Positions 32,612 through 64,000 of a stretch of 64,000 bases of DNA are shown piece by piece; the first letter of the stretch is position 1, and every line of letters starts with the position of its first letter. Location of the stretch: assembly GCA_902546975.1 (NCBI GenBank), contig CACCLU010000001.1, forward strand, positions 248,001 through 312,000, written 5' to 3'. The notes below the pieces were generated by a model that did no database searches, was not told where the DNA came from, and worked only from the letters and a program-made list of their open reading frames with translations. The position numbers and the translations under genes are program-made. This DNA is from an uncultured Alphaproteobacteria bacterium (lineage in GTDB: Bacteria > Pseudomonadota > Alphaproteobacteria > HIMB59).

Positions 32612-33045
32612 AGGCTGTCTTTTACTCTATTTCTAATCAATATAAAATCTTTATCTTCCAGGCCAAGTAACGTTGATATTTTTCTCGCAGTAGAAACCTC
32701 AAGCTGATCTTCTTTGCCATCAACCATTAATACTTGCCAACAAATTAAAATTACGTCCATTCTCTGTTCATAACTAAGCGATTTTTTAAGTCTGTATGAA
32801 AACTGAGATAAGTCAGTGTTAAAATGTTGTTTATTGGCTAATTTAGTAAATTGCTCTTTATTACTCTGAATTGGTATTTTAAAGTAAAACTCTACTAACT
32901 CAGAAGCAAAATTAATTTCTTGTTCCGAAATTTCATGATCTGCAATAATAATTTCGTAAATCAGATTATATAAATCTGACTCAAAAGAGTGATCATCGTT
33001 TTTATCCTTATTTTCATTAAAGGATTGGAAGAATTTATTTAACAT
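32608..33045 (-). CDS. TerB-like helical protein
   Basis: A 145-residue all-helical protein with the TerB (tellurite-resistance/DjlA-like) repeat: [20 protein letters not shown] and [20 protein letters not shown], each with an acidic helix-start motif. Likely cytosolic, function unknown. Overlaps the helicase 3' end by 11 bases, in the helicase-fdxA-carD neighbourhood. Confidence 0.78.
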
Positions 33046-46023: not shown

Positions 46024-46788
46024 ATGAAAATACTTGAGTTAAATCAGTTAGAGAAAAAATTTGGTGACAATAAAGTTTTAAAAGGGATTAATCTTATTGC
46101 CAATAAAGGAGATGTCGTAAGTATTATTGGAAGTTCTGGATCAGGAAAGAGTACTATGCTTCGTAGTGTAAATTTTCTTGAAACTCCTGATAGCGGTACC
46201 GTAAATGTTTGTGGTGAAATTATCAACTGTAGTGATGAGAATTTAAAAAAACCTAGTAAAAATCTACAATCAAAGATTACTTTTATTAGAAAAAAATTGG
46301 GTATGGTTTTTCAAAGTTTCAATCTTTGGTCACACATGAATATTTTAGATAATATAACAGAGGCTCCTGTAAATGTTTTAGGAATAGATAAAGAAGTTGC
46401 TCAAGAACAAGCAATGATACTTTTGAAAAAAGTAGGAATCGAGGACAAGGCAAACGAATACCCCTCTCATCTATCAGGAGGTCAGCAACAAAGAGCAGCA
46501 ATAGCAAGAGCACTTGCCATTTCTCCAGAAATATTATTATTTGATGAGCCGACATCATCGCTTGATCCAGAATTAGTAGACGAAGTCTTATCTGTTATTC
46601 GTAATTTAGCTGAACAGGGAAAAACAATGTTAGTTGTAACTCATGAAATGGCGTTTGCTAGAAAAGTTTCAAATAAAGTTATTTTTCTCCATGATGGTCT
46701 TGTGGAAGAGGAAGGACATCCTGACACAGTTTTCACAAATCCCCAGTCAGAGCGTTGCAGGAATTTCTTATTTAATAGACGCGAATAA
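46024..46788 (+). CDS. Amino-acid ABC transporter ATP-binding protein (HisP type)
   Basis: A 254-residue ATPase: Walker A GSSGSGKSTML, Q-loop MVFQSFNLWSHM, signature LSGGQQQRAAIARAL, Walker B ILLFDEPTSSLDPE, and switch His in VVTHEMAFAR. Probably powers the HisQ/M-like permeases encoded 4 kb away on the other strand, since none other is seen. Separate from them by the bactofilins. Confidence 0.94.
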   Translation: MKILELNQLEKKFGDNKVLKGINLIANKGDVVSIIGSSGSGKSTMLRSVNFLETPDSGTVNVCGEIINCSDENLKKPSKNLQSKITFIRKKLGMVFQSFNLWSHMNILDNITEAPVNVLGIDKEVAQEQAMILLKKVGIEDKANEYPSHLSGGQQQRAAIARALAISPEILLFDEPTSSLDPELVDEVLSVIRNLAEQGKTMLVVTHEMAFARKVSNKVIFLHDGLVEEEGHPDTVFTNPQSERCRNFLFNRRE

Positions 46789-48040: not shown

Positions 48041-48385
48041 TTAAGTTTTAATTTTTCCTGAAATAGTTCCACCAGGACTTGTAACGAGTCCTTGCTCATC
48101 TATTATTACTGGACCAGATGCGGGATCAGTGACTCCTAGTTCAGGGGAAATCTCTTCAAGTAAATCTCTCACTGTATCCAAGTATGCGATCATCTGCTGG
48201 CGAGCTTTTGCTAAACTATCCTCGTCAATCCACTCCACCACACTGCAATAGGAACGGTCTCCTGTTTTGATGACTTTTCTAAAGATCACGCCATCTGGGT
48301 TCACAAATTTTTTCATCGAAGCTGTAAAATTTTCAACCTCTCCCTCTTTGACTACAAACTTAACAACACTTATAAATTTTGGCAT
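48041..48385 (-). CDS. ABM-like alpha/beta-barrel protein
   Basis: A 114-residue protein. The first 85 residues look like a dimeric alpha-beta-barrel (antibiotic-biosynthesis-monooxygenase-like) domain: ISVVKFVVKEGEVENFTASM and YCSVVEWIDEDSLAKAR. The last 30 residues are extended. Function unknown; convergent with folD. Confidence 0.55.
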   Translation of the reverse strand: MPKFISVVKFVVKEGEVENFTASMKKFVNPDGVIFRKVIKTGDRSYCSVVEWIDEDSLAKARQQMIAYLDTVRDLLEEISPELGVTDPASGPVIIDEQGLVTSPGGTISGKIKT

Positions 48386-48448
48386 ATTCCAATTTTATTA
48401 ATATTTTCAACAAAAAATAGATAATTCTAAAAATTTTTATTTTTTGGT

Positions 48449-48463
48449 AACCCATTTTGGGTT
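48449..48463. promoter_or_regulatory. Inverted repeat before the wHTH gene, candidate operator
   Basis: AACCCA-TTT-TGGGTT, two six-base arms (48449-48454 and 48458-48463). It lies about 20 bases before the ATG of a winged-helix protein, an expected spot for self-regulation. Confidence 0.35.
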
Positions 48464-48484
48464 TAAATATTGTATAAATTCAAG

Positions 48485-48988
48485 ATGAACACTAAAAAAG
48501 ATTCTAATCAAAAATCAAATTACAGCAAAGCGGCTTATGCATGGCTTATGCACGTTACAAGCTACTACAAAAGAATAAGCGATATAGGAATAAATATTGA
48601 CGAATTAATGGCCCTTAATACTGTAGCTGCTCATTGGCTGTATAAGATTAATACCTCGGACACCAAATCACTTGATGAGTTAATTGAAATGTCATCTGAT
48701 GAAATTAAAAAATATTTTAAAGGATCAAAACTATCAATATTAAGTATTGCAAATATTTTATCTCAACCTAAAGAGAGTATTCGTAGACGTGTTCAAAAAT
48801 TAATCGACTATCAATTATTAGCAAAAGATGAGAGTAACGGGATTATATTAGGAGAAAATTATACAAAAATAATGGGTGGGTTTGGAGAGGTTACTTCTAA
48901 AGAACTTGCACGACTAGTTTCAAATCTAAATCAAGTAAAATTCGTTGAAGAAGTATCAGGATTAAATGAAATTAAAAAATTAAAATGA
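48485..48988 (+). CDS. Winged-helix transcription-regulator-like protein
   Basis: About 167 residues. A central segment with NILSQPKESIRRRVQKLIDY fits a winged-helix recognition helix followed by the wing LLAKDESNGIILG. The upstream half is helical and unrecognised. The ATG at 48485 is used; a TTG at 48470 adds five residues. It overlaps the MFS transporter by four bases, so the two may be functionally linked, with the regulator controlling the pump. Ligand unknown. Confidence 0.65.
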   Translation: MNTKKDSNQKSNYSKAAYAWLMHVTSYYKRISDIGINIDELMALNTVAAHWLYKINTSDTKSLDELIEMSSDEIKKYFKGSKLSILSIANILSQPKESIRRRVQKLIDYQLLAKDESNGIILGENYTKIMGGFGEVTSKELARLVSNLNQVKFVEEVSGLNEIKKLK

Positions 48989-50205
48989 AAAAGCTATTAA
49001 CATTTTCTTTTTACGATTTTGGGAATTCAGTATTTCCCATGATTATAATTACAACTTTAACTTCTAGTTATTTTGTTAATCACGTCATTGATAATCAACA
49101 AACAGGAGCTGCATTATGGCAATTAATTATTGGTATGTCGGGAATTCTAATTGCATTGACGATGCCCTTTATCGGTAAATTATCTGATGCAACTAATAAT
49201 GGGCGTGTAATTTATTTAAGATTTTTTTCAATTATTTGTATTTTATCTATCGCTGCGTTTTGGTTTGTGCTACCAGACTCAAATTATGTTCTATTTTGTC
49301 TTTTTTTATTATTTTTAGGAAGTATTAGCTATGAAGCATCGAATAGTTTGTACAATGCAACTTTAAAAAGTTGTTATTCAAAAGATTTATCTTTTGGCTC
49401 TGGAGTTGGTTTTGGAACAGGATATATAGGGGGAGTGCTTGTCTTAATAATAATACTTTATCTATTCATTCTTCCAGATGAAAATATCCTGGGATTGTCT
49501 AAGGATAATCAAGCCCCTATTCGTTTTTCTCATTTAATATTATCTTTATGGTTCTTTGTATTTTGCATTCCCTTAATGTTTTTTACTAAGTTCAATCAAA
49601 AGGCCTACACTATTACAAATAAAACAACTCACACAATCAAAGATTTGATATGGGATAATGGTCTTACAAATACAGGTAGGTATTTAATCGCAAGAATGAT
49701 TTACATGGACGGTTTAATCATTGTGACGACAACAATTGGAATTTTTGGAACTTCTGTAATGGGTATATCAATCAGCAAGATCATTATAGTGGCGATATTA
49801 TGTAATGTTAGTGGAGCAGTGGGTTGCTATCTCTTTGGTATATTTTTCAAAAACGACAAAATAGTTATAATAATTTCTCTAGCATTACTCTCCGCTATTA
49901 TCATCTCCATGTCAATAAACACAAATCCAACTGCATTTATTATTCTTGCAGTAATCGGTACCTTTTTTTCAGGACCTTTACAAAGTTCTAGTAGAGTTGT
50001 CATGGCAAAACTCATACCTGATGAGATGCAAGGGTTAGGATTTGGCATGTTCACATTTTCAGGAAAAGCAACAGCTTTTTTAGGACCCCTTTGTGCTGCA
50101 GCAATTACTTTTTTATTCTCTCAACGTTTCGGCTTTGGATTTTCAATAGTGCTACTCCTATCGGGTATGTTACTTATGTTAAAGGTTAGCTACCAGAATA
50201 ATTAG
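48985..50205 (+). CDS. MFS transporter, UMF1/Atg22-like
   Basis: A 406-residue major-facilitator protein with twelve helices. The opening SFYDFGNSVFPMIIITTLTS is the UMF1/Atg22-like signature. MPFIGKLSDATNNGR is the loop 2-3 motif. It may export small molecules. Four-base overlap with the regulator upstream, four-base convergent overlap with the orphan gene downstream. Confidence 0.85.
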   Translation: MKKLLTFSFYDFGNSVFPMIIITTLTSSYFVNHVIDNQQTGAALWQLIIGMSGILIALTMPFIGKLSDATNNGRVIYLRFFSIICILSIAAFWFVLPDSNYVLFCLFLLFLGSISYEASNSLYNATLKSCYSKDLSFGSGVGFGTGYIGGVLVLIIILYLFILPDENILGLSKDNQAPIRFSHLILSLWFFVFCIPLMFFTKFNQKAYTITNKTTHTIKDLIWDNGLTNTGRYLIARMIYMDGLIIVTTTIGIFGTSVMGISISKIIIVAILCNVSGAVGCYLFGIFFKNDKIVIIISLALLSAIIISMSINTNPTAFIILAVIGTFFSGPLQSSSRVVMAKLIPDEMQGLGFGMFTFSGKATAFLGPLCAAAITFLFSQRFGFGFSIVLLLSGMLLMLKVSYQNN

Positions 50206-51131
50206 AAATTTAAAATCTTATCTCTAATTTCGTAAAAGTCATTTTTTGAGATTGCCTGTGACAAACTAAAGAAAGTATTTTTCTTTTCGTTACATCTTTT
50301 ATAAGCCTTTAAAAAGGATGAATAAGGGGTAAAACATATTGAAGGTGTTTGGAGTATGCCCTCCCAACAAAAAGTTTTTAACTCAGATTGTTGATCCTGA
50401 ATTTTAAATTGACCCAAATCAATGCATTGAAATAAGTTTTTTAGTGTCACTATATAATAATCTAAAGGTATTTCCTGTATTTCTAAACTTGGAAACAAAG
50501 AAGGCTCGGTATTTTCAAATGAACTATTTGCTTCAGAAAGATATTGGCATTCCTTTGCTATTATTGAAAATTCATCAAATATACTTGTAGAAGATATATC
50601 AGCGCCACTTGCATCTTTTAAAATAATTTCACTAGGACTCATTCCATGTTTAAGACGGCTCTTTTTTAAAGATTGGCTAATCTCTTTTTTGATCTTCTGA
50701 CAATGTTTTTCTATCTGTTTTAAACTTTGAGTAAGTGATTTAACCATTTGATGATTCATCACTTTTTTATTTTGAATTGAGTACAGGCAATCTAATGCCT
50801 CTAACTCTTGAGAAATTTTTTGAAATTCTAATTTCTGATAAGTCTTGATAATTGCTCTTAGCTTAGCAAAGATCTTAAAATCACTTGATCTCTTAAAATC
50901 AAGCATTTCTGTGAAACGATCATAATCAGTTGCTTTAGAGCTTTTAAAAAATAGTCTTTCTTTGATTACGTCACTAAGCTCTGCGCTATTTAAGTGATCA
51001 AAGGTTTTCTTTTGATCTTGTTCTTCTAGCCATTTAGATTTGAAAAATGAGCTCGGGGAGCTTATTTTTTTTCCAGTTTCCTTTTGAAACTGATCTTTCA
51101 TCGATTGGTGCAAAATAATCATGAGTAGCAA
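50202..51131 (-). CDS. Orphan protein at the end of the giant-protein cluster, start uncertain
   Basis: About 309 residues from TTG 51131, helix-rich, with many Lys, Ser and Gln, coiled-coil-like LTQSLKQIEKHCQKIKKE near residue 140, and scattered Cys. No family recognised. Upstream in frame without any ATG, up to a stop near 51190, lie codons for NYKKAFKISVLLLLMIILHQ, a signal-peptide-like segment. The true start may thus be a rare ATT or ATA codon, and the product may be exported. It begins about 60 bases after the M50 gene stop on the same strand. Confidence 0.6.
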   Translation of the reverse strand: MLLMIILHQSMKDQFQKETGKKISSPSSFFKSKWLEEQDQKKTFDHLNSAELSDVIKERLFFKSSKATDYDRFTEMLDFKRSSDFKIFAKLRAIIKTYQKLEFQKISQELEALDCLYSIQNKKVMNHQMVKSLTQSLKQIEKHCQKIKKEISQSLKKSRLKHGMSPSEIILKDASGADISSTSIFDEFSIIAKECQYLSEANSSFENTEPSLFPSLEIQEIPLDYYIVTLKNLFQCIDLGQFKIQDQQSELKTFCWEGILQTPSICFTPYSSFLKAYKRCNEKKNTFFSLSQAISKNDFYEIRDKILNF

Positions 51132-51188
51132 TAATACACTGATTTTAAATGCTTTTTTATAGTTTATGGCCCAAAATGAGCCACTAAT

Positions 51189-53291
51189 TTAGAAATTTAG
51201 CTCTCTAATTAAAGTGGCTGATGCAAAGTCAATAAAGCGGCTGAAATAGCTTTTTGACACTATTCCCATATTCACAAAGCCAAGCATTTTATTATCCATA
51301 GCTGAGGCATTGTCCTCTAAGTCAAATGTGACTTTGTAGTATGCTTGTTCAGATCGAATACCCCCTGAAGGATTTTCACTAGCTGCAATCGGACCATCAA
51401 ATATTGAGGTAACCATTGGGTACATATCAAAATTATTAATCGATGATTTACTTATTGAATTAACGTAGGCAGCGATACTGTCTTGTGATGTAGAAGAAGG
51501 AGTGAACCAAATTTCTTTGTTGGTATCTAAAGAAGAAATATTTTTTTCAGATACAAAGGCAATTACTTGATAATTATTTTTATTTACTAGTTTAAGTATA
51601 GCCGTATCTTCATTTAGCCATTGCTGTTCTTTTAAATTACCTAAATTAGTTACTTCGCCATCGAAAGGGGCCACGATTTCCAGAGAAGATTTGATTTTAT
51701 TTAGATTATTTATTTGAGTTTCAAATTTATTTCTTTCACTTTTTAAAAGTAGTAAATCAGACCTATTGGTCTCTGTATCTAAAGCATTATTTATTTTTTT
51801 TTCTATCAATTCTAGTTCCGCAACAGCTATTTTTATTTCAGAGTTTAAAGCAGGCGAGTCTAAATTAATTAATTTTTGATCTTCCTTAACGATTTGTTTT
51901 TCTATTATATAGATATCTTTAACTTGTGAATTAATTGGTGGAAAGATTTCTATAAATTTTTCAGATTGATATATTGCAGGAGTTTTTTGAGAAGATTTCC
52001 AAGGATAAAATATAATAAATGCCAAAGTGCCTAGCACAAGAATCGACCTTACGAATTGTAAGGAGAGATAAATATTAGAACGTAATCTCCACCATTCACG
52101 CATTTCTCTAAAAATAGGCAGTAAAATAAACCACACAATCTCTACTACAAATAGGAAGATGCCTAAAAGTTTAAATGCAAAGTAATAAACTAATAAGGCT
52201 ATCCCTAAAAATAAAAAGAAACGGTATATCCAAGTGGCCCAAGCATAAACAATGATTAAGTTTTGTTTTTGAATGTTGATTTGCTCAGGGGGTTTGTGTT
52301 TGAACCCAAAGATCCATTGACGAAGTTTCCATTTTGCCAGTGCAAAGGCTCGAGGTTGTAAGTTTTCCACTTTTAAATAATCTGCAAATACGTAATAACC
52401 ATCAAATCGCATAAAAGGGCTTATATTTATAAGCAAGGAGGAGATCCAACCAGTTGTTGCAACAAAAAATGCTATACTTTTCAACATTCCTTGGTCTGTA
52501 ATACCCCATACAAAGGTAGCCAATAAAGCAAGATGTAGCTCTGTGGAAATGCCTGCGAAGTTTATAGAGAGTCTTTTTTTGTGATCTCTTAACCTCCACG
52601 CATTGGTGTTATCGGTATACAAAAAAGGAAAAAAAACAAGAAAAGCAATTCCCATGGAATTGACATTACAGCCAAAATTTTTTGCAGTGTACGCATGTCC
52701 TAATTCATGAATTGCTTTCACACCAACCAGAGCAAAAGCGTAAAACAACAAACCATTCCAATTAAAAAAATATAAAAATGTTGTTAAAAACTCATCCCAT
52801 TGCTGGATAACAAAATAAATGCCCGTAACACCTATAATGTAGATCAATAGTCTTAAAAATCTTTGGCCAAAAAATTTTGCAATGTGTAATGTTTTATCTA
52901 AAAAAGGATCAGGTTTAATTAAGGGAATTTTAAAGAACAAATAGTTATGTATTAAATTCATAAACCAATGTTTTTTTTGTGCGTTGTGTTGATGCAATAA
53001 AATCTGTACATCCTCTGAACTGTTATGAGAAATCAAACTATTTGTTTTTAGAAAATTAATAAAGTCATTTAGCTGGTCCGCTTCTATATCCAAACCTTTT
53101 TGTTGTGCTTGTTCAATAAATTGCTTTGTATCCACACCGGCAATCCAATGTTTAAGCATACGAAAGGCATTTACACCTAAGGTGAAATATTTATTTCTTA
53201 AGTTATCGTAGAGTAACCACGATGGTGACCCATCTTCCATTGGTGTACCTTGAAGAAGTTGCAAGTTTTGACGTATTGACGGTGTAATCAT
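51189..53291 (-). CDS. PqqD-like / M50 metalloprotease / HlyD-like fusion membrane protein
   Basis: A 700-residue protein. Residues 1-90 look like a PqqD-type wHTH (WLLYDNLRNKYFTLG). Membrane helices follow. The zinc site is HELGH (195-199) with a second motif N289-P292-D297-G298 (ISPFMRFDGYY), as in M50 site-2 proteases. After further helices near 340-430, the last 240 residues form a HlyD-type barrel and coiled coil (SLEIVAPFDGEVTNLG). Such PqqD-M50-HlyD proteins occur with giant repeat proteins. It may cut, release or anchor the exported protein. Start directly follows the previous gene stop. Confidence 0.85.
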   Translation of the reverse strand: MITPSIRQNLQLLQGTPMEDGSPSWLLYDNLRNKYFTLGVNAFRMLKHWIAGVDTKQFIEQAQQKGLDIEADQLNDFINFLKTNSLISHNSSEDVQILLHQHNAQKKHWFMNLIHNYLFFKIPLIKPDPFLDKTLHIAKFFGQRFLRLLIYIIGVTGIYFVIQQWDEFLTTFLYFFNWNGLLFYAFALVGVKAIHELGHAYTAKNFGCNVNSMGIAFLVFFPFLYTDNTNAWRLRDHKKRLSINFAGISTELHLALLATFVWGITDQGMLKSIAFFVATTGWISSLLINISPFMRFDGYYVFADYLKVENLQPRAFALAKWKLRQWIFGFKHKPPEQINIQKQNLIIVYAWATWIYRFFLFLGIALLVYYFAFKLLGIFLFVVEIVWFILLPIFREMREWWRLRSNIYLSLQFVRSILVLGTLAFIIFYPWKSSQKTPAIYQSEKFIEIFPPINSQVKDIYIIEKQIVKEDQKLINLDSPALNSEIKIAVAELELIEKKINNALDTETNRSDLLLLKSERNKFETQINNLNKIKSSLEIVAPFDGEVTNLGNLKEQQWLNEDTAILKLVNKNNYQVIAFVSEKNISSLDTNKEIWFTPSSTSQDSIAAYVNSISKSSINNFDMYPMVTSIFDGPIAASENPSGGIRSEQAYYKVTFDLEDNASAMDNKMLGFVNMGIVSKSYFSRFIDFASATLIRELNF

Positions 53292-54626
53292 TTACAGGCC
53301 AAGTGTCTGTCTTACAAAAATTATAGGCTTTCGAAATAAGAAGAAAAATAATTTTACTTCCTCACCGAAAATCTTTGCAGTACCTCTAAGCCCTATTCTA
53401 GGTGGAGTATCATTTTCAATTAGCTCCGCGGTGACCCGATAAGCAAGAAGGTTTTGAGTTACTATTTCTGGCTCATATGAAAATTTTGTGACTTTAGCCT
53501 TAATAACATTCATAGGATCAGAGTCCAAAAAAACATTAATATTGGCGTCTTTTTTAATTGTAATGGAGTCTTTTACTGGCATGAAAATATTAACTTCCAC
53601 TAATGAGGGGTTAGCAACAACCATAATGTTTTCACCAATGTTATAGGGTTTGCCGATAAGCAACGATTTATCTTGTAAAACGGCTACCCCCTCAGCAGGA
53701 GAGTAAATCGTTGATCTGTCTAATAGTATTTTTTGATAATTGAGGGTTTCTTGTGCTAGTTTTATTTTGCTTTCGAGCTGGCTGACTAAAGCCTTATCCT
53801 CTTTGCTTTGGAACGAAGATTGCCTTGCTTGAAGTAACTCAGTTTCGATTACTTGTAATTCTTGAAAGGCTAGATCATAGTCGTTTTGTAGTTGGGTTTT
53901 TTCAAATTCCAATAATGGAGTTTCTAAATTCACCTCATCATTGTTTTCAACATACACCTCTTTAATAACTCCATCTATTGGTGCATTAATTATATTTGGT
54001 TCTTTAGGAGCTATTTCAGCCTGTCCAATTGTTGACATAGACACAGGATAAAACATGCTTGCAACTATTCCAGCTACAACAAAAAATTGAAACCATGTCT
54101 TGCGAATTAATTTAGCGGCACTTTCAAAAAAGTTATTCTCTTTTAGTGATCCCATTGCATGTCCAACGGAATTACTTAAATGTCGGATATATTCGATTTC
54201 TTGTTCCGTCCAGCTTTCGTCTCTTACTAATAATAAAACAGCCTGTGGTCCTTTTTGTGTTGAAAAGCAGGGAACCCATAAAAATTGATCGGGTAGAGGG
54301 CTTTCCCCTTTAGCAGGAACTAAAGCGTCTTTACTTAAAGAAAAGGGATGGGTTTCAGGAGAGCCCTCTTGTAATTTTTGTCGAATGATTTTTTGAGCGA
54401 GCGTGGTTGTGGCAGATGTTTGTTCAACTACTGCAATATCTGAAATAGCCTCAATTTTAAAGCTATTTGGTTTTGTCCAAGACCCAAAAAAAGCATACAT
54501 AAATGGGGCGATACTTCTAAGTTCATTGGTGACTGTGTACCTTATTTCAACAAAAGATTGAGCGTCACGTAACTTTTTCTCAAATGAGAAGATTCTAGAT
54601 AATCGATTTAATTGATCTTCACTCAA
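53292..54626 (-). CDS. GAF-like / HlyD fusion membrane protein
   Basis: A 444-residue protein. Residues 20-160 form a GAF-like domain (ending in the helix EQEIEYIRHLSNSVGHA). A membrane helix spans about 178-195. The C-terminal part is HlyD-type: lipoyl half NAPIDGVIKEVYVENNDEV, coiled coil about 245-310, then SPAEGVAVLQ and beta-barrel. The plan is cytosolic sensor, one helix, periplasmic adaptor. It overlaps the adaptor gene by four bases (ATGA) and abuts the M50 gene. Confidence 0.85.
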   Translation of the reverse strand: MSEDQLNRLSRIFSFEKKLRDAQSFVEIRYTVTNELRSIAPFMYAFFGSWTKPNSFKIEAISDIAVVEQTSATTTLAQKIIRQKLQEGSPETHPFSLSKDALVPAKGESPLPDQFLWVPCFSTQKGPQAVLLLVRDESWTEQEIEYIRHLSNSVGHAMGSLKENNFFESAAKLIRKTWFQFFVVAGIVASMFYPVSMSTIGQAEIAPKEPNIINAPIDGVIKEVYVENNDEVNLETPLLEFEKTQLQNDYDLAFQELQVIETELLQARQSSFQSKEDKALVSQLESKIKLAQETLNYQKILLDRSTIYSPAEGVAVLQDKSLLIGKPYNIGENIMVVANPSLVEVNIFMPVKDSITIKKDANINVFLDSDPMNVIKAKVTKFSYEPEIVTQNLLAYRVTAELIENDTPPRIGLRGTAKIFGEEVKLFFFLFRKPIIFVRQTLGL

Positions 54627-55366
54627 AATACAACGCGACCACTCATTCCTGGGAGAAGGGCAGGGCTGGTGTCAGTGATGGTGCCTTTGAGTTGAATAGT
54701 TTGACTAACTGCATCTACATTTGCACCGATACCACTAATTGTGGCATTAAATTCTTTTTGAATTTCATCAATATAAACTTTTATGGGATGTCCTATTTTT
54801 AACCAAGAAATCCATTCACTTGAAACTACCATTTCTAATTCTAAAACTTCTGTTTGAATGATTTTCATTAATTCTACTTGAGGTTGGATTGTTTCAAATG
54901 TGTTAACCACAACTTCTTCTACTGCTCCATCAAAGGGTGCTTTGATTTGACACCTCTCAACGTTTAATTCAGCGATACGGAGTTCTGATTTCGCTTTTTC
55001 ATATTCTGAAATTGATAATTCTAATTCATATTTACCGATTGATCTCATTTGTAGCATTTGTTCATCGCTTTTAAGTTTTATTAAAGCACTATTAGCATTT
55101 GCGCTAACTACATCCTTTTGGGCTTCATATAAACTACAATCAAACTGAATTAATAAATCTCCTTTTTTAAATCTTTGCATTTCTTTTACAGCGATATTTT
55201 CTATTCGAGCAGCAAGTTCACTAGATAAAATGGCTTCTTGCGAGGCAACGACTAATGCTCTCGACTCTCTTACCTCAGCGTTAGCATAGGAGAGCATCAA
55301 AACAATTAAGACAGCAGTCTTAACCAGATACTTTAAGGATTTTATCACCATAATTTTCATGTTCAT
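54623..55366 (-). CDS. Periplasmic adaptor (HlyD/RND-type membrane-fusion protein)
   Basis: About 247 residues, from one of several starts (TTG 55369, ATG 55366, 55360 or 55351), with a signal peptide ending YANA. Lipoyl halves RIENIAVKEMQRFKKGDLLIQF and IKAPFDGAVEEVVV flank a coiled coil. The start overlaps the last 47-50 bases of the giant gene, so co-translation is expected. No ABC exporter or TolC gene is in the window; these could be beyond it on the left of the gene order, upstream of the giant gene. Confidence 0.88.
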   Translation of the reverse strand: MNMKIMVIKSLKYLVKTAVLIVLMLSYANAEVRESRALVVASQEAILSSELAARIENIAVKEMQRFKKGDLLIQFDCSLYEAQKDVVSANANSALIKLKSDEQMLQMRSIGKYELELSISEYEKAKSELRIAELNVERCQIKAPFDGAVEEVVVNTFETIQPQVELMKIIQTEVLELEMVVSSEWISWLKIGHPIKVYIDEIQKEFNATISGIGANVDAVSQTIQLKGTITDTSPALLPGMSGRVVF

Positions 55367-58300
55367 CAAATTCTAAATCGATTTGATCTTGAAGAGAAGC
55401 AAACTTTACAACTTTTTCCTCTAGTTCAGGGTTTTGGTTATCTAAAGCTAGATTGTCATGAGCAGGCGTTTCCTCAATAATTTCAGGTATAACAGAAGCA
55501 TTATCTAGGTTGGATTGATTATTTGGGTCCTCTATTTGATTATCATCATTGCTTGAGTCATTTGGATTAAGCACATCATCTCTAGATCCATCATTTGACT
55601 CCAATATTATTTGGCCCTTCTCATCTACAGTCACTTCTGTTTTTAAAGCGGCACTTCGATCAATGAAAGGCTCTAAGTCTCTTTTTAATGCAGTGTCTCG
55701 GCTAACAGAGTTTTTATCAAGTGTAACGTTAATTTCTCTAGTTGTATTATCAGTGTCAATTGCAATAACTTTTACATCAACAGAATAAACGCTCTCTGGG
55801 AACTGAACAATTGTCTGACCTGTTGCAGGATCAACACGTATCCAGCTTGGAAGCTCCGAGCCATCCTCTAGTGTACCCGTATACTGTTTCACATTTAGTC
55901 TATAGTCATCTCCGATAGCAAATCCCAAAATTGTATTTTCATTGACTCCTGGTCTACCACTTTGGTCGATATTCAGATCCTCAACTGCAACATCAATCAC
56001 TTTCATTCCACCATTAAATGTGTACTCCTTCACTAATGATGCTAACGAACTTCTAATTGTCAAATCACCTGCTTGGTTATCAACCTTGGGTGTTTCAAAT
56101 ACAACTGTTCCTTTAGCTATAGCGGACTCTAATGTCTTTGGCTTCACGATTACAGGTGGAGGAGGAGGTGTTCCTTTCTCTCCTCGTTTTCCAACGATTA
56201 TAGTGAATGTTTGTGTAGTTGAAAGATTGCCTCCGTCAGTTGCAGTGATTGTGAATGTGTATGTACCCTCTGGGAGTCTTCCGTTTATTCTTCCAGCATC
56301 ATTGATAGAAAGCCCTGCAGGCAAACCACTCACACTATAAGTAAGTTGCCCATATGTAGTATTGGATGGATCGGGGTCATCAAAAAAAGTCTTCGATTGA
56401 ATTCTAATTTTTTGGCCCTCCATGGCACGAATTATCGGAGGTGCCGTCGAAGTTGGTGGATCATTGATACCTGTAACTGTAATTCGTAGCTCTGCTTTAT
56501 CCGTGCTCGTTCCATCGGAGAGAGTATATGTAAAGTAGTCAACTGCCGTCTCTAGAGGTTCCAAAGCCTTGGCGGCATTAGTGTTTGCAGTATAGGTATA
56601 GGTGCCATCAGCATTGAGCGTAAGGGTGCCGTATCTTCCAACCAAAGTTGAGCCTAAGGTTCCATCTGTTCCAGTGGCATTCTCTCTACCAGTTCTAATT
56701 TCAGTAACTGTTGCTTCACCAACCGAAAGGGCATCGGCTCCATTATCAGTGTCATTAGATATCAAACCTGCTCCTTCAACACTCTTGGACAGCGTGCTAC
56801 CAGCATCAACTGCACCTGTATCTGTCACAGCAACAACTTCATTATCAGATCCATTAACTGTAATTGTAAGAGTAGCTGTCGCTGTGGCGCCGTTTTCATC
56901 AGTCACTGTGTATGTAAACACATCAGTTTCACTAGAGCCACTTGCAATACTATCAGCTGCATCTTGATCGGCAATATAAGTATAAGAACCATCGGCACCT
57001 ATTGTAAGAGTACCGTAAGTACCAACGATGGTTGTACCGTCTCTATGAGTAGTGCTTGAAGTGACAGTGTCACTATTACCATTAGTGTGAGAAATATTTG
57101 TAACAGTTAGACTTGAACTTGCATCTGTGTCAGTATCATCATTGAGGACATCATCTTGACCACCTCTTACTGTAATTCTTTCATCTTCATTAACACTATC
57201 TGTATCATTTACAGCTGTTGGCGTGTCATTAATTCCAATAATACAAATTGTGATAACTGCTGTGTCTGAGAGAGTGCCGTCACTAACCGTATAATTAAAA
57301 TAATCATAAGCTATATCGCCCACATCAAGAGGGTCTGATGCATCTTGGTTTGCTACATAGGTATAAGAACCATTAGCGTTGAGGGTGAGTTGACCGTAAG
57401 TACCTGTTAAGGCTTGACCGACTGTACCAGCACTACCAGCATCTTCTGTTGATCCCAAACGAACCGCTGTCACTGTTAACGAGGCTGAGTCATCAGGATC
57501 GCTATCAGTGTGTGTACTCGAGCTGGTATCGATAACATCACCTGAGTGTTCGCCAGTGGCATCATAAGAGTCAGTGACGTTAGCATTTGCGCTATTTGCA
57601 ACAGTTAGTGTGCCGTCTTCTGAAATAACACCTTTATCATTTTGAGCCACAGGAGCGTCATTGATACCAGTTACAGTGATTGTGATCGTAGCTGTTGTGG
57701 TATTTGTTCCATCAGAAACTGTATAGGTAAAGACATCGGTTGCAGTATCACCATTATCTAAGGCGTCTGCTGCATCTTGATCGGCTGTATAGGTATAGGA
57801 TCCGTCAGCTCCAATGACAAGGGTACCATAGGTTCCAGTAACAGTCGTGCCGCCACTTGAGTGTGTACTTCCACCCGTAACGGTTGAAGTAGAGCCACCA
57901 CTAGGTGCAATTGCTGTTACCGTTAATGCATGAGAGTCGTCGGCATCTGTGTCATCATAAAGGACATCGTCTTCTGATCCTGTTTTTGTTACAGAGCCAT
58001 CCTCAGCAACACTATCAGTATCATCTACCGCTACTGGGGTATCGTTAATACCAATCACAGTGATTGTAATAACAGCAATATCAGTTTCAGTGCCATCGCT
58101 AATTGTATAGTTGAAATAGTCATAGACAACATCACCTGCATCTAAGTCATCTGCAGCCGATTGATTAGCAACATAGGTATAAGAGCCATTAGCATTAAGG
58201 GTGAGTTGACCGTAAGTGCCAGTTAAAGCAGATCCAACAGTTCCAGCAGTCCCCGAGCCTTCAGAGTTACCTATTCTAACTGCAGTAACAGTCAAAGTAT

Positions 58301-61300
58301 CACCATCGGAGTCTGTATCTTGAGAACTTGTGTTGCTTGTATCAATAACATCACCTGAATGCTCATCATTGACATTGATTAAACTAAATGGTGTGTCTAG
58401 TGTGTATTCGAAAACTTGCTTGTTTGCCGTACCAAGAACAAATACCTTTGTTCCGTCATTATTAAAGTTAACTGCTTTTGGAGCGCTATCTTGGCCACTG
58501 ACATCCAAAGCACCCACGAAAGAGGCCGTTGAAACATCAAACCCTAAAGTTAAATCATATTCGTTGATGTCATTTCCTTGATTTCCAACAACATACATTT
58601 TCGTTCCATCACTGTTGAAACTTAATCCGTTAGGGGTTGTGTCTTGTGAGGCCACTGAAAAACTATCAACGAAGGAAGCGGTGGATACGTCAAATCCTGT
58701 CGAAAGAGTATATTCATTGATATCGTCTCCGGCATTTCCAGCAACAAACATCTTTGTGCCATCGTTATTAAAGGCTAATCCTGTCGGGCTATCTTCTTGA
58801 GAGCTAATATCAAAACTGTCTACGAAAGAAGCAGTGGATACGTCAAAGGCGGTAGAAAGGGTATATTCATTGACATCATCTCCATTTGATCCAATGACAA
58901 ACATTTTTGTACCATCGTTATTAAATCTAAATCCTTGAGGAGTAAATTCTTCATTGCTGATAGAAAATCCGTCTACATACGTAGCAGCACTCACAGCATT
59001 AGCATTATCGCCATCACTGACAGTCAGCGTGGCGTCCTCTTTTACTGTACCAGTATCATCTCTTGCAACAGGTGCATCATTGGAACCACTAACAGTAATA
59101 GTTAATGTTGCTGTTGTTGTTGCGCCATTCTCATCAGTAACGGTATAAGTAAAGACATCATCTGCTGTTTCACCCGCATCTAGAGCATCAGCCGCTGATT
59201 GATCTGCGGTATAAGTATAGGAACCATCAGCACCTATGATCAAGGTACCGTATGTTCCCACAACGGAAGTACCATTAGATGCATAAGTACTACTTGAAGT
59301 GACAGAGGAGGAGGATCCGCCGCTTGGTTGAATTGCTGTAACGGTTAGTGTCGCTGAATTATCAGGATCACTATCATCTGTAAGAACATCATCTTGTGAA
59401 CCAGTCTTGGTTACTGTTGCACCGGCACTAACAGTATCAGTGTCGTTAACTGCAACTGGATCGTCGTTAGCGCCTAAAACTGTAATTGTTAAGGTGGCGG
59501 TTGTTGTAGCCGTTCCATCCGAGAGGGTGTAAACAAAAACATCATCAGCCAAACTATTTACATTTAGGGCGTCCGCAGCATCTTGATCTGCCACATAAGT
59601 ATAGGAACCATCTGCGCCAATCGTCAGCGTACCATAAGTACCCGTGACCGAGGTACCGCTACTGTTATAAGAGCTTCCGGAAGATACTGATGAATTCGAT
59701 CCACCATTCTTTTTAATTTGTGTGATGGAAAGGGAAGCAGAAGCATCAGCATCACTATCAGTATGAGAGCTATGGCTTGTATCGATGACATCACCTGAGT
59801 GCTCGCCGGTAACATTATATGTGCCAGTAACATTGGCATTGGCGCCATTGGCAACAGTTAAAGTACCGTCTTCAACAATAACACCGTGGTCATTTTGAGC
59901 TACCGGTGTATCATTTACTCCATTAACTGTAATGGTAATAGTTGCTGTCGTGGTTTCGCCATTGTCATCGGTGACGGTATAAGTAAAGACATCTGTCACT
60001 GTATCGCCGGCATCGAGGGCATCCGCCGCATCTTGATCAGCTGTATAAGTGTAAGAACCGTCAGCACCAATAGTTAAAGTGCCGTAAGTGCCAGTGGATT
60101 GTGTGCCATCGGTATAAGTTGTACCGCTCGTAACATTTGATGAAGAGCCCCCGCTTGGTTGAATTGCTGTGACTGTTATTGTCCCTGAGTCATCAGGATC
60201 ACTATCGTCATTAAGTACGTCATCTTGAGAGCCTGTTTTAGTTACTGTACCGTCTTCATTCACAGTATCCGTATCATCAACTGCAACTGGTGGGTCATTA
60301 ATTCCTAAAACGGTAATTGTAATATTTGCTGTTGTTGTTGCTGTTCCATCTGAGAGGGTGTAAACAAAAACATCAGTAACGCTATCGCCAGAGTCTAGGG
60401 CATCCGCAGCAGACTGGTCTGCAACATAAGTGTAGGAACCGTCGGCACCAATAGTGAGTGTACCGTACGTACCGGTAACGGAAGTTCCATTACTATTGTA
60501 GGAGCTTCCAGAAGATACTGCACTATCTGAGCCTCCATCTTTTTTAATTTGAGTAATTGACAAAGAAGCAGAGTCATCCGCATCACTGTCTGTGTGAGAA
60601 CTAGAACTTGTATCTATGACATCACCAGAATGCTCACCAGTAGCATTATAAGATCCGCCTGACTCATTAGCATTATCACCATTGGCTACTGTTAAAGTGC
60701 CGTCTTCTACAATCACACCGACATCATTTTGAGCTACTGGTGTATCGTTGATACCATTGACTGTGATAGTGATAGTTGCTGTTGTTGTTGCGCCGTTCTC
60801 ATCGGTAACAGTATAAGTAAAGACGTCAGTTACTGAGTCACCGGCATCTAAATCATCCGCCGCTGATTGGTCAGCTGAGTAAGTGTAAGAACCATCGGCA
60901 CCTATCACAAGTGTGCCATATGTTCCGGTTACTGATGTGCCATTAGTATAAGTTGTACCGCTGGTAACATTTGATGAAGACCCGCCACTCGGTTGAATTG
61001 CAGTAACAGTTAAAGTTGCTGAGTCATCAGGATCGCTATCATCTGTCAACACATCATCTTGAGAACCAGTTTTGGTAACAGTGCCGTCTTCATCCACCGT
61101 ATCAGTATCATCAACTGCCGTTGGAGTATCGTTTATACCCAATACTGTGATTGTGAGAGTAGCAGTGTCAGTCGCTGTTCCATCTGAAATGGTATAGATG
61201 AAAGTATCAGTAACCGAGTCATTTAAATCTAAATCATCTGCTGCAGACTGATCTGCAACGTAAGTATAGGAACCGTCAGCGCCTATGGTGAGCGTACCGT

Positions 61301-64000
61301 AAGTACCAGTGACCGAAGTTCCGCTACTATTATAAGAACTTCCAGAGGTAATCGCAGAGTCTGAACCTCCGCTTTTTCTAATTAAAGTGACAGTTATTGC
61401 GTCACTATCAGCATCGCTGTCACTATGCGAGCTGGAACTTGTATTCATAACATCACCGGAATGTTCACCTGTTGCATTAAAAGTAGTACCTGAGTCATTG
61501 GTCTCATTAGCATTAGCTCCGTTAGCTACTGTTAAAGTGCCGTCTTCTACGATGACACCGACGTCATTTTGAGCCACAGGCGCGTTGTTGGAAGATCCAT
61601 CATCACCTAAAAGTGTAATGACAAGGTTTGCTGTCGTGCTTGCCGTACCATCTGAAACTGTGTAAGTAAATGTATCGGTGAGAGTCTCTCCTGCGTCGAA
61701 GCCGGCTATATCCGATTGAGCCACATATTTATATGAACCATCAGCACCGATTGTTAATGTACCATATGCGCCAGTTACAGCAGTTCCGCTACTATTATAA
61801 GAACTACCGGAAGAGACAGTTGAATTGGAACCGCCATCTTTTTTAATGTGAGTAATTGTTAAGGTATCACTGGTATCAGGATCATTGTCGGTGTGCGAGC
61901 TTGAACTTGTATCAATAACATCACCTGAATGTTCGCCAGTCGCATCAAAACTTCCAGACACGTTAGCGTTTGCGCTATTGGCAACAGTTAAGGTATCGCC
62001 TTCCATGATTACACCCACGTCGTTTTGTGCTGTAGGGTTATCGTTTGCGCCTAAAATAGTAATTGTAATGGTAGCCGTTGTGGTTTCCGTTCCATCGCTC
62101 AAAGTATATACAAAGACATCTGTTACACTCTCACCGTCTGCAACTCCATCAGCGGCATCTGCCGTGGCAGCATAAGTATATGAACCATCGGCACCGATCG
62201 TTAGTGTACCGTAAGTACCCGTGACCGAAGTGCCGTTACTATTGTAAGAACTGCTGGAAGCAACTGATGAATTAGAGCCACCATTCTTTTTAATTTGTGT
62301 GATGGAAAGGGAAGCAGAAGCATCTGCATCACTATCTGTATGAGAACTAGAACTTGTATCGATAACATCACCAGAGTGCTCGCCGGTAGCATTAAAGGTG
62401 CTGCCAGAATCATTGGTTTCATTGGCATTATCCCCATTGGCTACTGTTAAAGTACCATCTTCTACGATGACACCGACGTCATTTTGAGCTACTGGCGTAT
62501 CATTGACACCGAAAACTATTATTTGAATCAAAGCTGTATCTGTCAGAGCACCATCTGTAACGGTATAATTAAAAGAGTCAGTTTCTGAGTCGCCAGCATC
62601 TAAAGCTTCAGCTGCCGCTTGGTTTGCAACATATGTATAAGAACCATTGGCGTTTAACGTCAATTGTCCATAAGTGCCCGTCAACGCTTGACCAACAGTA
62701 CCTGCGGTACCTGAACCCTCAGTTGAACCCAATCGAACTGCACTTACGGTTAATGTGTCTCCATCGACATCAGTATCAGTTCCCGTATAAGTTGTATTGA
62801 TTACATCACCCGAGTGTTCACCTGTGTCATCATATCTTTGATTTGCAGTAAAGTATTGATTGTCTCCATCAGCAACAGTTAAGGTAGCATTCTCGTTAAT
62901 AGCACCATAATCATTAGCGGCTACTGGGGCATCATTAGCACCAAGAATAGTGATCGTTAATGTTGCGGTTGTGGTGGCTGTACCATCAGAGAGGGTGTAG
63001 ACAAAAACATCTGTGGCCGTATCTCCAACATCTAATGCGTCAGCCGCATCTTGAGTTGCGGCATAAGTATATGAACCATCGGCACCGATCGTTAGTGTAC
63101 CGTAAGTACCAGTGACCGAAGTTCCGCTACTGTTATAAGAACTTCCAGAAGAAACTGATGAATTGGATCCCCCATCCTTTTTAATTTGTGTGATGGAAAG
63201 GGAAGCAGAAGCATCTGCATCAGAGTCGGTATGGGAAGAAGAACTAGTATCGATCAAATCTCCAGAGTTTTCTCCAGTTGCATCATAGGAGCCCGTTAAT
63301 GTTGCATTTGCACCATTTGCAACAGTCAGGGTTCCGTCTTCCACAATGACTCCCACGTCATTCTGTGCAACAGGATCATCGTTAATGCCTAGAACAGTTA
63401 TAGTAATAGTTCCAATATCTGTCGCGGTGCCGTCACTGACAGTGTAATTAAAAGTATCGGTAACAGAGTCGCCAGCATCTAGAGCGTCCGCTGCTGTTTG
63501 ATTAGCTGCATAGGTATAAGAACCATTAGCATTTAAAGTTAATTGTCCATAAGTGCCGGTTAGCGCTTGGCCTACAGTACCAGCGTCCCCTGAACCCTCA
63601 ACAGAACCTTTTCGAACAGCTGTCACTGTTAAAGTTTCAACATCTATATCCGTATCTTGATGAGTGGTTGAGCTTGTATGAATAACATCTCCAGAATGTT
63701 CTCCTGTGGCGTCGTAAGTACTTGTTACGTTTGCATTATCCCCATCACTGACAGTCAAAGTACTGTCCTCTTCTATCACACCAACGTCATTGCGAGCGAC
63801 AGGCGCATCATTGGCACCAAGAATAGTGATCGTTAATGTTGCGGTTGTGGTGGCTGTACCATCAGAAAGGGTGTAGACAAAAACATCAGTAGCTGTTTCA
63901 CCTGTATCAAGAGGGTCAGCAGCGGCTTGGTCTGCAACATAGGTATAAGAACCGTCGGCTCCAATTGTTAAAGTACCATAAGTTCCAGTTACCTGTGTAC
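55320..64000 (-). CDS. Giant VCBS/cadherin-like repeat surface protein, 5' end outside window
   Basis: The frame is open from the window end (64000) to TAA at 55320, about 2,890 residues. Sixteen VCBS/Big_9-type repeats of about 100 residues are visible, each with NDxPVAxxD, GTYGTLTIGADGSYTY and DVFTYTVTD-like strands. One repeat (nt 58377-58981) holds four propeller-like units. The C-terminal part has an Ig-like/He_PIG domain (LTYSVSGLPAGLSIN, nt about 56190-56450), an about 280-residue unique region with VYSVDVKVIAIDTD, and an acidic Asn/Asp-rich end. No RTX nonapeptides or a type I secretion signal are evident. Likely a surface adhesin or stalk; the GTG at 63779 is internal. G+C is higher than in the neighbours. 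Confidence 0.92.
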   Translation of the reverse strand, partial: TQVTGTYGTLTIGADGSYTYVADQAAADPLDTGETATDVFVYTLSDGTATTTATLTITILGANDAPVARNDVGVIEEDSTLTVSDGDNANVTSTYDATGEHSGDVIHTSSTTHQDTDIDVETLTVTAVRKGSVEGSGDAGTVGQALTGTYGQLTLNANGSYTYAANQTAADALDAGDSVTDTFNYTVSDGTATDIGTITITVLGINDDPVAQNDVGVIVEDGTLTVANGANATLTGSYDATGENSGDLIDTSSSSHTDSDADASASLSITQIKKDGGSNSSVSSGSSYNSSGTSVTGTYGTLTIGADGSYTYAATQDAADALDVGDTATDVFVYTLSDGTATTTATLTITILGANDAPVAANDYGAINENATLTVADGDNQYFTANQRYDDTGEHSGDVINTTYTGTDTDVDGDTLTVSAVRLGSTEGSGTAGTVGQALTGTYGQLTLNANGSYTYVANQAAAEALDAGDSETDSFNYTVTDGALTDTALIQIIVFGVNDTPVAQNDVGVIVEDGTLTVANGDNANETNDSGSTFNATGEHSGDVIDTSSSSHTDSDADASASLSITQIKKNGGSNSSVASSSSYNSNGTSVTGTYGTLTIGADGSYTYAATADAADGVADGESVTDVFVYTLSDGTETTTATITITILGANDNPTAQNDVGVIMEGDTLTVANSANANVSGSFDATGEHSGDVIDTSSSSHTDNDPDTSDTLTITHIKKDGGSNSTVSSGSSYNSSGTAVTGAYGTLTIGADGSYKYVAQSDIAGFDAGETLTDTFTYTVSDGTASTTANLVITLLGDDGSSNNAPVAQNDVGVIVEDGTLTVANGANANETNDSGTTFNATGEHSGDVMNTSSSSHSDSDADSDAITVTLIRKSGGSDSAITSGSSYNSSGTSVTGTYGTLTIGADGSYTYVADQSAADDLDLNDSVTDTFIYTISDGTATDTATLTITVLGINDTPTAVDDTDTVDEDGTVTKTGSQDDVLTDDSDPDDSATLTVTAIQPSGGSSSNVTSGTTYTNGTSVTGTYGTLVIGADGSYTYSADQSAADDLDAGDSVTDVFTYTVTDENGATTTATITITVNGINDTPVAQNDVGVIVEDGTLTVANGDNANESGGSYNATGEHSGDVIDTSSSSHTDSDADDSASLSITQIKKDGGSDSAVSSGSSYNSNGTSVTGTYGTLTIGADGSYTYVADQSAADALDSGDSVTDVFVYTLSDGTATTTANITITVLGINDPPVAVDDTDTVNEDGTVTKTGSQDDVLNDDSDPDDSGTITVTAIQPSGGSSSNVTSGTTYTDGTQSTGTYGTLTIGADGSYTYTADQDAADALDAGDTVTDVFTYTVTDDNGETTTATITITVNGVNDTPVAQNDHGVIVEDGTLTVANGANANVTGTYNVTGEHSGDVIDTSHSSHTDSDADASASLSITQIKKNGGSNSSVSSGSSYNSSGTSVTGTYGTLTIGADGSYTYVADQDAADALNVNSLADDVFVYTLSDGTATTTATLTITVLGANDDPVAVNDTDTVSAGATVTKTGSQDDVLTDDSDPDNSATLTVTAIQPSGGSSSSVTSSSTYASNGTSVVGTYGTLIIGADGSYTYTADQSAADALDAGETADDVFTYTVTDENGATTTATLTITVSGSNDAPVARDDTGTVKEDATLTVSDGDNANAVSAATYVDGFSISNEEFTPQGFRFNNDGTKMFVIGSNGDDVNEYTLSTAFDVSTASFVDSFDISSQEDSPTGLAFNNDGTKMFVAGNAGDDINEYTLSTGFDVSTASFVDSFSVASQDTTPNGLSFNSDGTKMYVVGNQGNDINEYDLTLGFDVSTASFVGALDVSGQDSAPKAVNFNNDGTKVFVLGTANKQVFEYTLDTPFSLINVNDEHSGDVIDTSNTSSQDTDSDGDTLTVTAVRIGNSEGSGTAGTVGSALTGTYGQLTLNANGSYTYVANQSAADDLDAGDVVYDYFNYTISDGTETDIAVITITVIGINDTPVAVDDTDSVAEDGSVTKTGSEDDVLYDDTDADDSHALTVTAIAPSGGSTSTVTGGSTHSSGGTTVTGTYGTLVIGADGSYTYTADQDAADALDNGDTATDVFTYTVSDGTNTTTATITITVTGINDAPVAQNDKGVISEDGTLTVANSANANVTDSYDATGEHSGDVIDTSSSTHTDSDPDDSASLTVTAVRLGSTEDAGSAGTVGQALTGTYGQLTLNANGSYTYVANQDASDPLDVGDIAYDYFNYTVSDGTLSDTAVITICIIGINDTPTAVNDTDSVNEDERITVRGGQDDVLNDDTDTDASSSLTVTNISHTNGNSDTVTSSTTHRDGTTIVGTYGTLTIGADGSYTYIADQDAADSIASGSSETDVFTYTVTDENGATATATLTITVNGSDNEVVAVTDTGAVDAGSTLSKSVEGAGLISNDTDNGADALSVGEATVTEIRTGRENATGTDGTLGSTLVGRYGTLTLNADGTYTYTANTNAAKALEPLETAVDYFTYTLSDGTSTDKAELRITVTGINDPPTSTAPPIIRAMEGQKIRIQSKTFFDDPDPSNTTYGQLTYSVSGLPAGLSINDAGRINGRLPEGTYTFTITATDGGNLSTTQTFTIIVGKRGEKGTPPPPPVIVKPKTLESAIAKGTVVFETPKVDNQAGDLTIRSSLASLVKEYTFNGGMKVIDVAVEDLNIDQSGRPGVNENTILGFAIGDDYRLNVKQYTGTLEDGSELPSWIRVDPATGQTIVQFPESVYSVDVKVIAIDTDNTTREINVTLDKNSVSRDTALKRDLEPFIDRSAALKTEVTVDEKGQIILESNDGSRDDVLNPNDSSNDDNQIEDPNNQSNLDNASVIPEIIEETPAHDNLALDNQNPELEEKVVKFASLQDQIDLEFDEHENYGDKILKVSG
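56450..64000 (-). repeat. Tandem VCBS/cadherin-like repeat array, two alternating classes
   Basis: Class A repeats begin VAQNDVGVIVEDGTLTV and contain EHSGDVIDTSSSSHTD; class B begin VDDTDTVxEDGTVTKTGSQDD. In N-to-C order (high to low coordinates) there are six A repeats, then alternating B-A-B-A-B-A-B-A-B, then a variant. Some blocks are near-identical at DNA level (62941-63011 versus 63817-63887, one mismatch), showing recent exchange. Confidence 0.85.
58377..58981 (-). repeat. Four propeller-like repeats inserted in one VCBS unit
   Basis: Four units of about 51 residues, each with FNNDGTKMFV, G-D-DxNEYTLST and FDVSTASFVDSF-like strands. They split a class A repeat between its DGDNAN and EHSGDVIDTS segments. 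Similar motifs occur in marine phage and bacterial surface proteins (recollection, not searched). Confidence 0.8.

Follow-up and report, generated by a model that had tools for sequence, protein, structure and literature searches.

The window analyzed here is a stretch of 64,000 nucleotides (C1:248001-312000) from a 1.29 Mb, 94% complete genome of an uncultured alphaproteobacterium. It ends with a block of genes encoding a giant repeat protein and three adaptor-like proteins, one of which combines an adaptor part with a predicted M50 metalloprotease. The relevant features are listed below in window positions, except for the TolC-like gene, which lies beyond the window and is given on the extended locus L002.

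55320..64000, minus strand: giant VCBS/cadherin-like repeat protein (C-terminal 2,892 aa of 4,804)
54623..55369, minus strand: HlyD-type periplasmic adaptor, 248 aa, with a signal-peptide-like N-terminal hydrophobic segment
53292..54626, minus strand: GAF-HlyD adaptor, 444 aa, GAF-like N-terminal part, then HlyD part
51189..53291, minus strand: PqqD-M50-HlyD protein, 700 aa
53013..53222, minus strand: PqqD-like (RRE-type) domain, residues 24-93 of the M50 protein
52695..52709, minus strand: HELGH zinc motif, residues 195-199 of the M50 protein
52398..52427, minus strand: NxxPxxxxDG motif, residues 289-298 of the M50 protein
51252..51998, minus strand: HlyD/membrane-fusion part, residues 432-680 of the M50 protein
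50202..51131, minus strand: orphan gene, 309 aa, accessory
L002:7826-10306, plus strand: TolC-like protein, 826 aa, with an OEP domain

The gene order and overlaps described in the first-pass annotation of this DNA were confirmed: the giant gene overlaps the HlyD gene by 50 nt (47 nt from the ATG at codon 2), and the next two junctions have overlaps of 4 and 0 nt. These values are identical in all nine genus members checked, including the genome analyzed here, and such conservation suggests translational coupling of the cassette genes. Both zinc motifs attributed to the M50 protein are present, and the three adaptor-like proteins are all of the HlyD type by Pfam. Other parts of that annotation had to be revised. 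The giant protein, described as 2,819 aa from a GTG codon, consists of 4,804 aa, with a TTG start 5,734 bp beyond the window, the gene extending to C1:317734. The outer-membrane factor not visible in the window is encoded beyond it, where the longest ORF of an OEP/TolC gene (826 aa) begins 91 bp past the start of the giant gene and diverges from it. In the extended contig, this gene is followed by argG, and there is no standard secretion operon; the reported lack of an ABC exporter was borne out in the cassette. The orphan gene had been counted as a member of the set as well; we rejected it as a part of the system because it is absent from four of the nine genus loci (present in five) and matches no family above the cut-off.

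The cassette, then, comprises five kinds of genes, for the giant protein, the TolC-like channel, HlyD, GAF-HlyD, and PqqD-M50-HlyD. In three genomes (G001, G046, and G006), the folD and argG flanks lie together without it. The cassette thus behaves like an accessory island, and 29 of the 52 genomes of the genus have an M50 protein match. The near relatives among named genomes are uncultured marine Alphaproteobacteria. Near the cassette (window 48041-50205), the genus loci read also contain a 114-aa gene; only some members have the orphan gene, an HTH gene, or an MFS gene there. In one genus member (G007:C2; L195, L196), the giant and TolC genes are split into several frames and the adaptor genes are open, which could reflect either assembly error or decay.

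Beyond the genus, the five gene kinds are clustered in many members of the Pseudomonadota as well as in Nitrospira. We kept the best 80 matching loci from named genomes, a set that leans towards relatives of the query; these come from Pelagibacteraceae, Colwellia, Marinomonas, Nitrospira, Nitrosomonas, Pseudomonas, Pectobacterium, Azospirillum, Hyphomicrobium, Desulfovibrio, and others. The ORF caller found the M50 gene in 75 of these; it missed the gene in the remaining five (L243, L249, L257, L266, and L273), where tblastn had matched it, and these five were left out of the order counts. In 72 of the 75 loci, the GAF-HlyD gene is located directly upstream of the M50 gene; therefore, chance does not explain the arrangement. 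Among all 80, GAF-HlyD was found in 74, HlyD in 57, and TolC in 47, with contigs often ending early. A frequent order is giant, TolC, HlyD, GAF-HlyD, M50-HlyD; in Nitrospira, the giant gene can come after the M50 gene, and in Azospirillum brasilense Sp7 (plasmid locus AMK58_RS22620-RS22640), Niveispirillum, and an E. coli plasmid the order is giant, TolC, RND adaptor, HlyD, HlyD, the last being the M50-HlyD match. In the three plasmid records read, the genes are named only generically (HlyD, RND adaptor, TolC, DUF4347 or Ig-like). Matches to M50-HlyD are present on plasmids of E. coli, Citrobacter, and Hafnia; the one E. coli record read (NZ_CP146666.1; L389, L390) retains the five-gene order, with a giant protein that has LESRQLFDGAA and DUF4347 in its N-terminus. 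In the phylum sample, the full M50-HlyD protein was found in 77 of 398 genomes, about one in five. The phylum matches fall into two score groups, one of 77 genomes (500 bits or more) and one of 13 whose best match scores 127-342 bits, and some genomes hold both; the lower-scoring group may represent a related system.

The complete giant protein of the window genome carries LEPRIMFDGAA near its N-terminus, followed by a DUF4347 domain. A large ORF (at least 700 aa) lies at or within the cassette ends in 55 of the 75 loci, compared with 11 of 409 ORFs of that size elsewhere in the same loci, a per-ORF rate that is only a rough control. Eight of the 20 loci lacking a large neighbor are cut at the locus edge. 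The large neighbor carries the LExR motif in 28 of the 75 loci, with many N-termini lying beyond the fetched stretch. Co-occurrence was assessed in three nested samples of related genomes, so that Fisher values overstate independence: in the genus, 25 genomes have both M50-HlyD and DUF4347, four and four have one only, and 19 have neither (n=52); in the class, DUF4347 is present in 19 of 24 M50-HlyD genomes and in 18 of 361 others; in the phylum, in 71 of 77 M50-HlyD genomes (at least 500 bits), leaving six without a match, and in 24 of 321 others, or, with all 90 M50 matches included, in 75 of 90 and 20 of 308. Of the eight discordant genomes in the genus, three (G009, G031, and G045) were read and proved to be contig breaks, and three of the 18 class genomes with DUF4347 only are below the Pfam cut-off. 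None of the 14 control genomes contains DUF4347. The proposal that the adaptors form a system dedicated to the giant has thus withstood scrutiny on both counts, given that the giants adjoin the adaptors and that no unrelated secretion operon came into view on extension. From the gene neighborhoods, we consider it highly probable that the cassette is a dedicated export/display system for one giant protein.

The N-terminal motif follows the cassette closely. A motif of the LExRxxFD type, read in frame upstream of the DUF4347 match, is present ahead of this domain in 17 of 18 cassette genomes and in none of 11 others in the class sample (29 loci besides the window genome); with the same pattern core, it was found in 26 of 28 cassette genomes, one of the 26 by eye, and in neither of the two others in the phylum sample. 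These counts cover the loci returned, that is, 29 of 37 class genomes and 30 of 95 phylum genomes (nearly all of these 30 have the cassette), and the pattern was drawn up after cassette members had been inspected. In G396, which has the cassette, the DUF4347 gene is 3.2 Mb distant from it and shows no clear motif, and the DUF4347 genes read in G556 and G542 are also devoid of it. Conversely, a Pectobacterium giant adjoining the cassette has the motif but no DUF4347 match. Taken together with the counts, this giant indicates that, at the sequence level, the LExRxxFDxA motif, rather than DUF4347, follows the exporter cassette and is its better marker. By hydropathy, no signal-peptide-like core is detectable in the N-terminus of the window giant: the highest 19-residue value among the first 120 windows is 0.98, against 1.83 for the HlyD adaptor. 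At the opposite end, a C-terminal LPxW stretch is common, although not universal, among the giants. The TolC-like protein of the window genome has a C-terminal SPOR domain (21.8 bits, cut-off 21) and a sub-threshold He_PIG match; in a Salinisphaera TolC (L228), He_PIG scores 31.8 bits. With similar LPxW stretches at the ends of many giants, cargo and channel may share a docking domain.

The M50 protein is a multi-TM protein with an HExxH plus NxxPxxxxDG zinc site, in which all 47 aligned sequences share H195, E196, H199, N289, and D297; proteolysis is predicted. In its structural model (mean pLDDT 87.5, from 45 sequences), a domain of beta3-alpha3 order at the N-terminus is followed by a helical core and, C-terminally, by the adaptor part. 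In Foldseek searches, the adaptor part matches MacA, MexA, EmrA, and AcrA, and the top 50 matches listed for the protein are all adaptors, none of them PqqD or M50. The N-terminal domain aligns with the PqqD profile in hhalign at 94.1% (E 1.3e-7, 68 columns), whereas the controls, 10 column shuffles and four other families, all remain at or below 0.5%. Single-sequence matches are weak, with 5 of 40 members matching PqqD (best 0.0057) and 5 of 40 matching PqqD_rel_WgkC (best 4.7e-5), and the sequence profile search of the PDB retrieved no PqqD chain. The N-terminus of the M50 protein is thus PqqD-like, with an RRE-type fold according to this remote match and the model, and is predicted to bind a leader. 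The cassette protein is the only Peptidase_M50 (PF02163) match in the whole genome (G000, 94% complete); a site-2 protease of the RseP type was not found there.

For the second adaptor, the HlyD part of the original GAF/HlyD assignment stands, whereas the GAF domain has no Pfam match in the window protein and is matched in relatives only: PF01590 was detected in 4 of 26 aligned N-terminal parts of GAF-HlyD proteins (best 8.4e-5). A single hydrophobic segment (about residues 179-197) separates the GAF-like part from the HlyD part.

For DUF4347, a model built from a genus relative (L208) has a mean pLDDT of 63, with about 75-95 by blocks of ten in the core (residues 61-190) and less than 50 in the leader. 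Foldseek matched this model to Hcp3-Tce1 (4.3e-5; 9qpe is among the matches) and to caspase-3/7 (4.5e-4 and weaker); these matches have query TM-scores of 0.23-0.41, and flavodoxins come next at about 2e-3. In an alignment of 14 sequences chosen partly by an H-x-x-x-H-like pattern, His122 and Cys165 do not vary, and HxxxH is missing from 7 of the 18 DUF4347 domains of cassette genomes. The fold modeled for DUF4347 is likely caspase-like (clan CD type); that the domain is an active protease appears somewhat doubtful. The text of PMC8262886 places DUF4347 also in PA0256, a putative type VI effector.

In the mechanism we favor as probable, judging from the genes, the cassette would be an exporter dedicated to the giant, with a PqqD/M50 unit that would bind, and probably cut, the giant's leader. 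PqqD/RRE domains are established binders of RiPP leaders. By analogy, the giant would be recognized in the cytoplasm through its N-terminal leader, which the PqqD-like domain of the M50 protein would bind; we give such recognition an even chance. The M50 active site, within the membrane, would cut the leader or gate entry, with predicted cleavage falling just short of even chances. The periplasmic HlyD parts of the three adaptors, together with TolC, would then carry the chain outward, and the caspase-like DUF4347 behind the leader may subsequently cleave the giant or release it. The first-pass annotation suggested a system that may release or sense the giant; for the protease, processing of the N-terminal leader fits the PqqD-like domain better.

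The cassette encodes no energy source, so that such an exporter lacks a motor, and it is here that the strongest alternative arises, namely, that SecYEG and SecA (the host SecA here, a secondary one elsewhere) move the giant across the inner membrane, the adaptors and TolC act only from the periplasm outward, and the M50 protein functions like a leader peptidase. According to Kamneva, Poudel and Ward 2015 (PMC4452313), genes for M50/HlyD, GAF/HlyD, and HlyD proteins stand next to secondary SecA genes in several phyla, and the lack of an ABC exporter agrees with this scheme: no type I ABC exporter was found in the cassette or in the 94% complete genome. Searches for the corresponding SecA speak against it. 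The window genome encodes a single SecA, on another contig, and no second one was found; among the 24 class cassette genomes, a second SecA_DEAD match is strong only in G392 and marginal in G396 (24.5 bits, cut-off 24.6); and no SecA was seen in the best 80 named loci (flanks up to 10 kb), where the single-sequence model could miss a divergent SecA. A window gene (33035-35608) considered as a secondary SecA turned out to encode a Suv3-like helicase. Given, in addition, that the giant is devoid of a signal-peptide-like core, we regard Sec-driven translocation as unlikely. Within the dedicated exporter scheme, host SecA/SecYEG or the proton motive force are candidate energy sources.

Under a second alternative, the M50-HlyD and GAF-HlyD proteins would be a sensor pair that controls the amount or release of the giant by regulated intramembrane proteolysis and would not be involved in export. 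Regulators are frequent targets of M50/site-2 proteases, and small molecules are ligands of GAF-like domains; however, both proteins contain HlyD parts and stand beside HlyD and TolC genes, the PqqD-like domain points to peptide-leader binding, and the shared core of the cassette includes no transcription factor, which makes this possibility quite improbable.

The window genome encodes one complete ABC_membrane protein and one 31-bit fragment; the best NCBIfam match of the complete protein is MsbA, at 476 bits (cut-off 602), and we rejected it as a motor because it is MsbA-like and a 580-aa match of like score is present in G001, which lacks the cassette. The ABC ATPase at 46024-46788 was rejected as well, given that it also lies beside folD in G001, G046, and G006, where there is no cassette. 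In two of the best 80 loci (L255 and L258), a simple motif search found an ABC-ATPase-like ORF directly downstream of the M50 gene. Ordinary type I secretion driven by an ABC exporter encoded elsewhere, although TolC and HlyD proteins are type I components and VCBS/cadherin-like adhesins are known type I cargo, is very improbable, considering the MsbA-like protein and the fragment in the window genome and the single ABC_membrane protein in each of the cassette holders G019 and G016; in these genomes, at 91-94% completeness, a lost contig is possible.

The adaptor trio itself was already described in 2015: the main text of PMC4452313 presents a secondary SecA_DEAD gene with M50-HlyD, GAF-HlyD, HlyD, and, sometimes, an OEP gene, notes weak M50 similarity and no ABC gene, and suggests the secondary SecA as the ATPase and M50 as the pore. 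The same three adaptor types occur together in our cassette; however, that module is centered on a secondary SecA, which is absent from the window genome, and the words cadherin, VCBS, giant, adhesin, and PqqD do not occur in the main text of that paper. The type I system of giant adhesins, LapEBC/LapA (for LapA, see PMC8277102), shares with the cassette a TolC-type channel, an HlyD-type adaptor, and a giant repeat adhesin; in contrast, the cassette has no ABC ATPase that we could see, includes three adaptors, has the protease fused to an adaptor, and carries the shared cargo hallmark at the N-terminus. Thus, of the type I features, the HlyD-type adaptor and the TolC-type channel are present and the ABC exporter was not found. 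Residues 27-391 of the M50 protein match the daptide intramembrane metalloprotease family NF041824 at 131 bits (cut-off 300); unlike the PqqD-M50 proteases of RiPP systems, this protein is fused to an HlyD part and neighbors a giant protein instead of a peptide. The LEPR motif is shared with the LEPR-XLL family NF012209, for which PMC10868602 gives as an example a giant protein from Vibrio, about 8000 aa in length. The window giant scores 16.5 bits and that of a genus relative 17.0 against the cut-off of 17, whereas other cassette giants are below it or do not match; furthermore, the motif here is LExRxxFDxA, at times with LESR, and is tied to one exporter cassette. We found no other paper on the module in the literature searched, which included few subscription papers and no preprints, so that a prior description is possible. 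As far as this literature shows, the giant cargo with its motif and its caspase-like domain, the PqqD-like domain, and the frequent lack of a secondary SecA are apparently new.

The cassette extends from small-genome ocean bacteria to Azospirillum, enterobacterial plasmids, and, outside the phylum, Nitrospira. We tentatively suggest that it could represent a separate class of diderm secretion systems, in which an RRE-protease-adaptor fusion reads and processes the N-terminal leader of the giant and replaces the ABC exporter, with exit through TolC. Just as tentatively, RiPP-like leader recognition might direct the largest bacterial proteins, the cargo often bearing a caspase-like domain right after the leader. 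If the interpretation is correct, the cassette would provide an export route, and the motif a candidate signal, for giant surface proteins, raising the question of how proteins of thousands of residues cross the membranes without an ABC motor.
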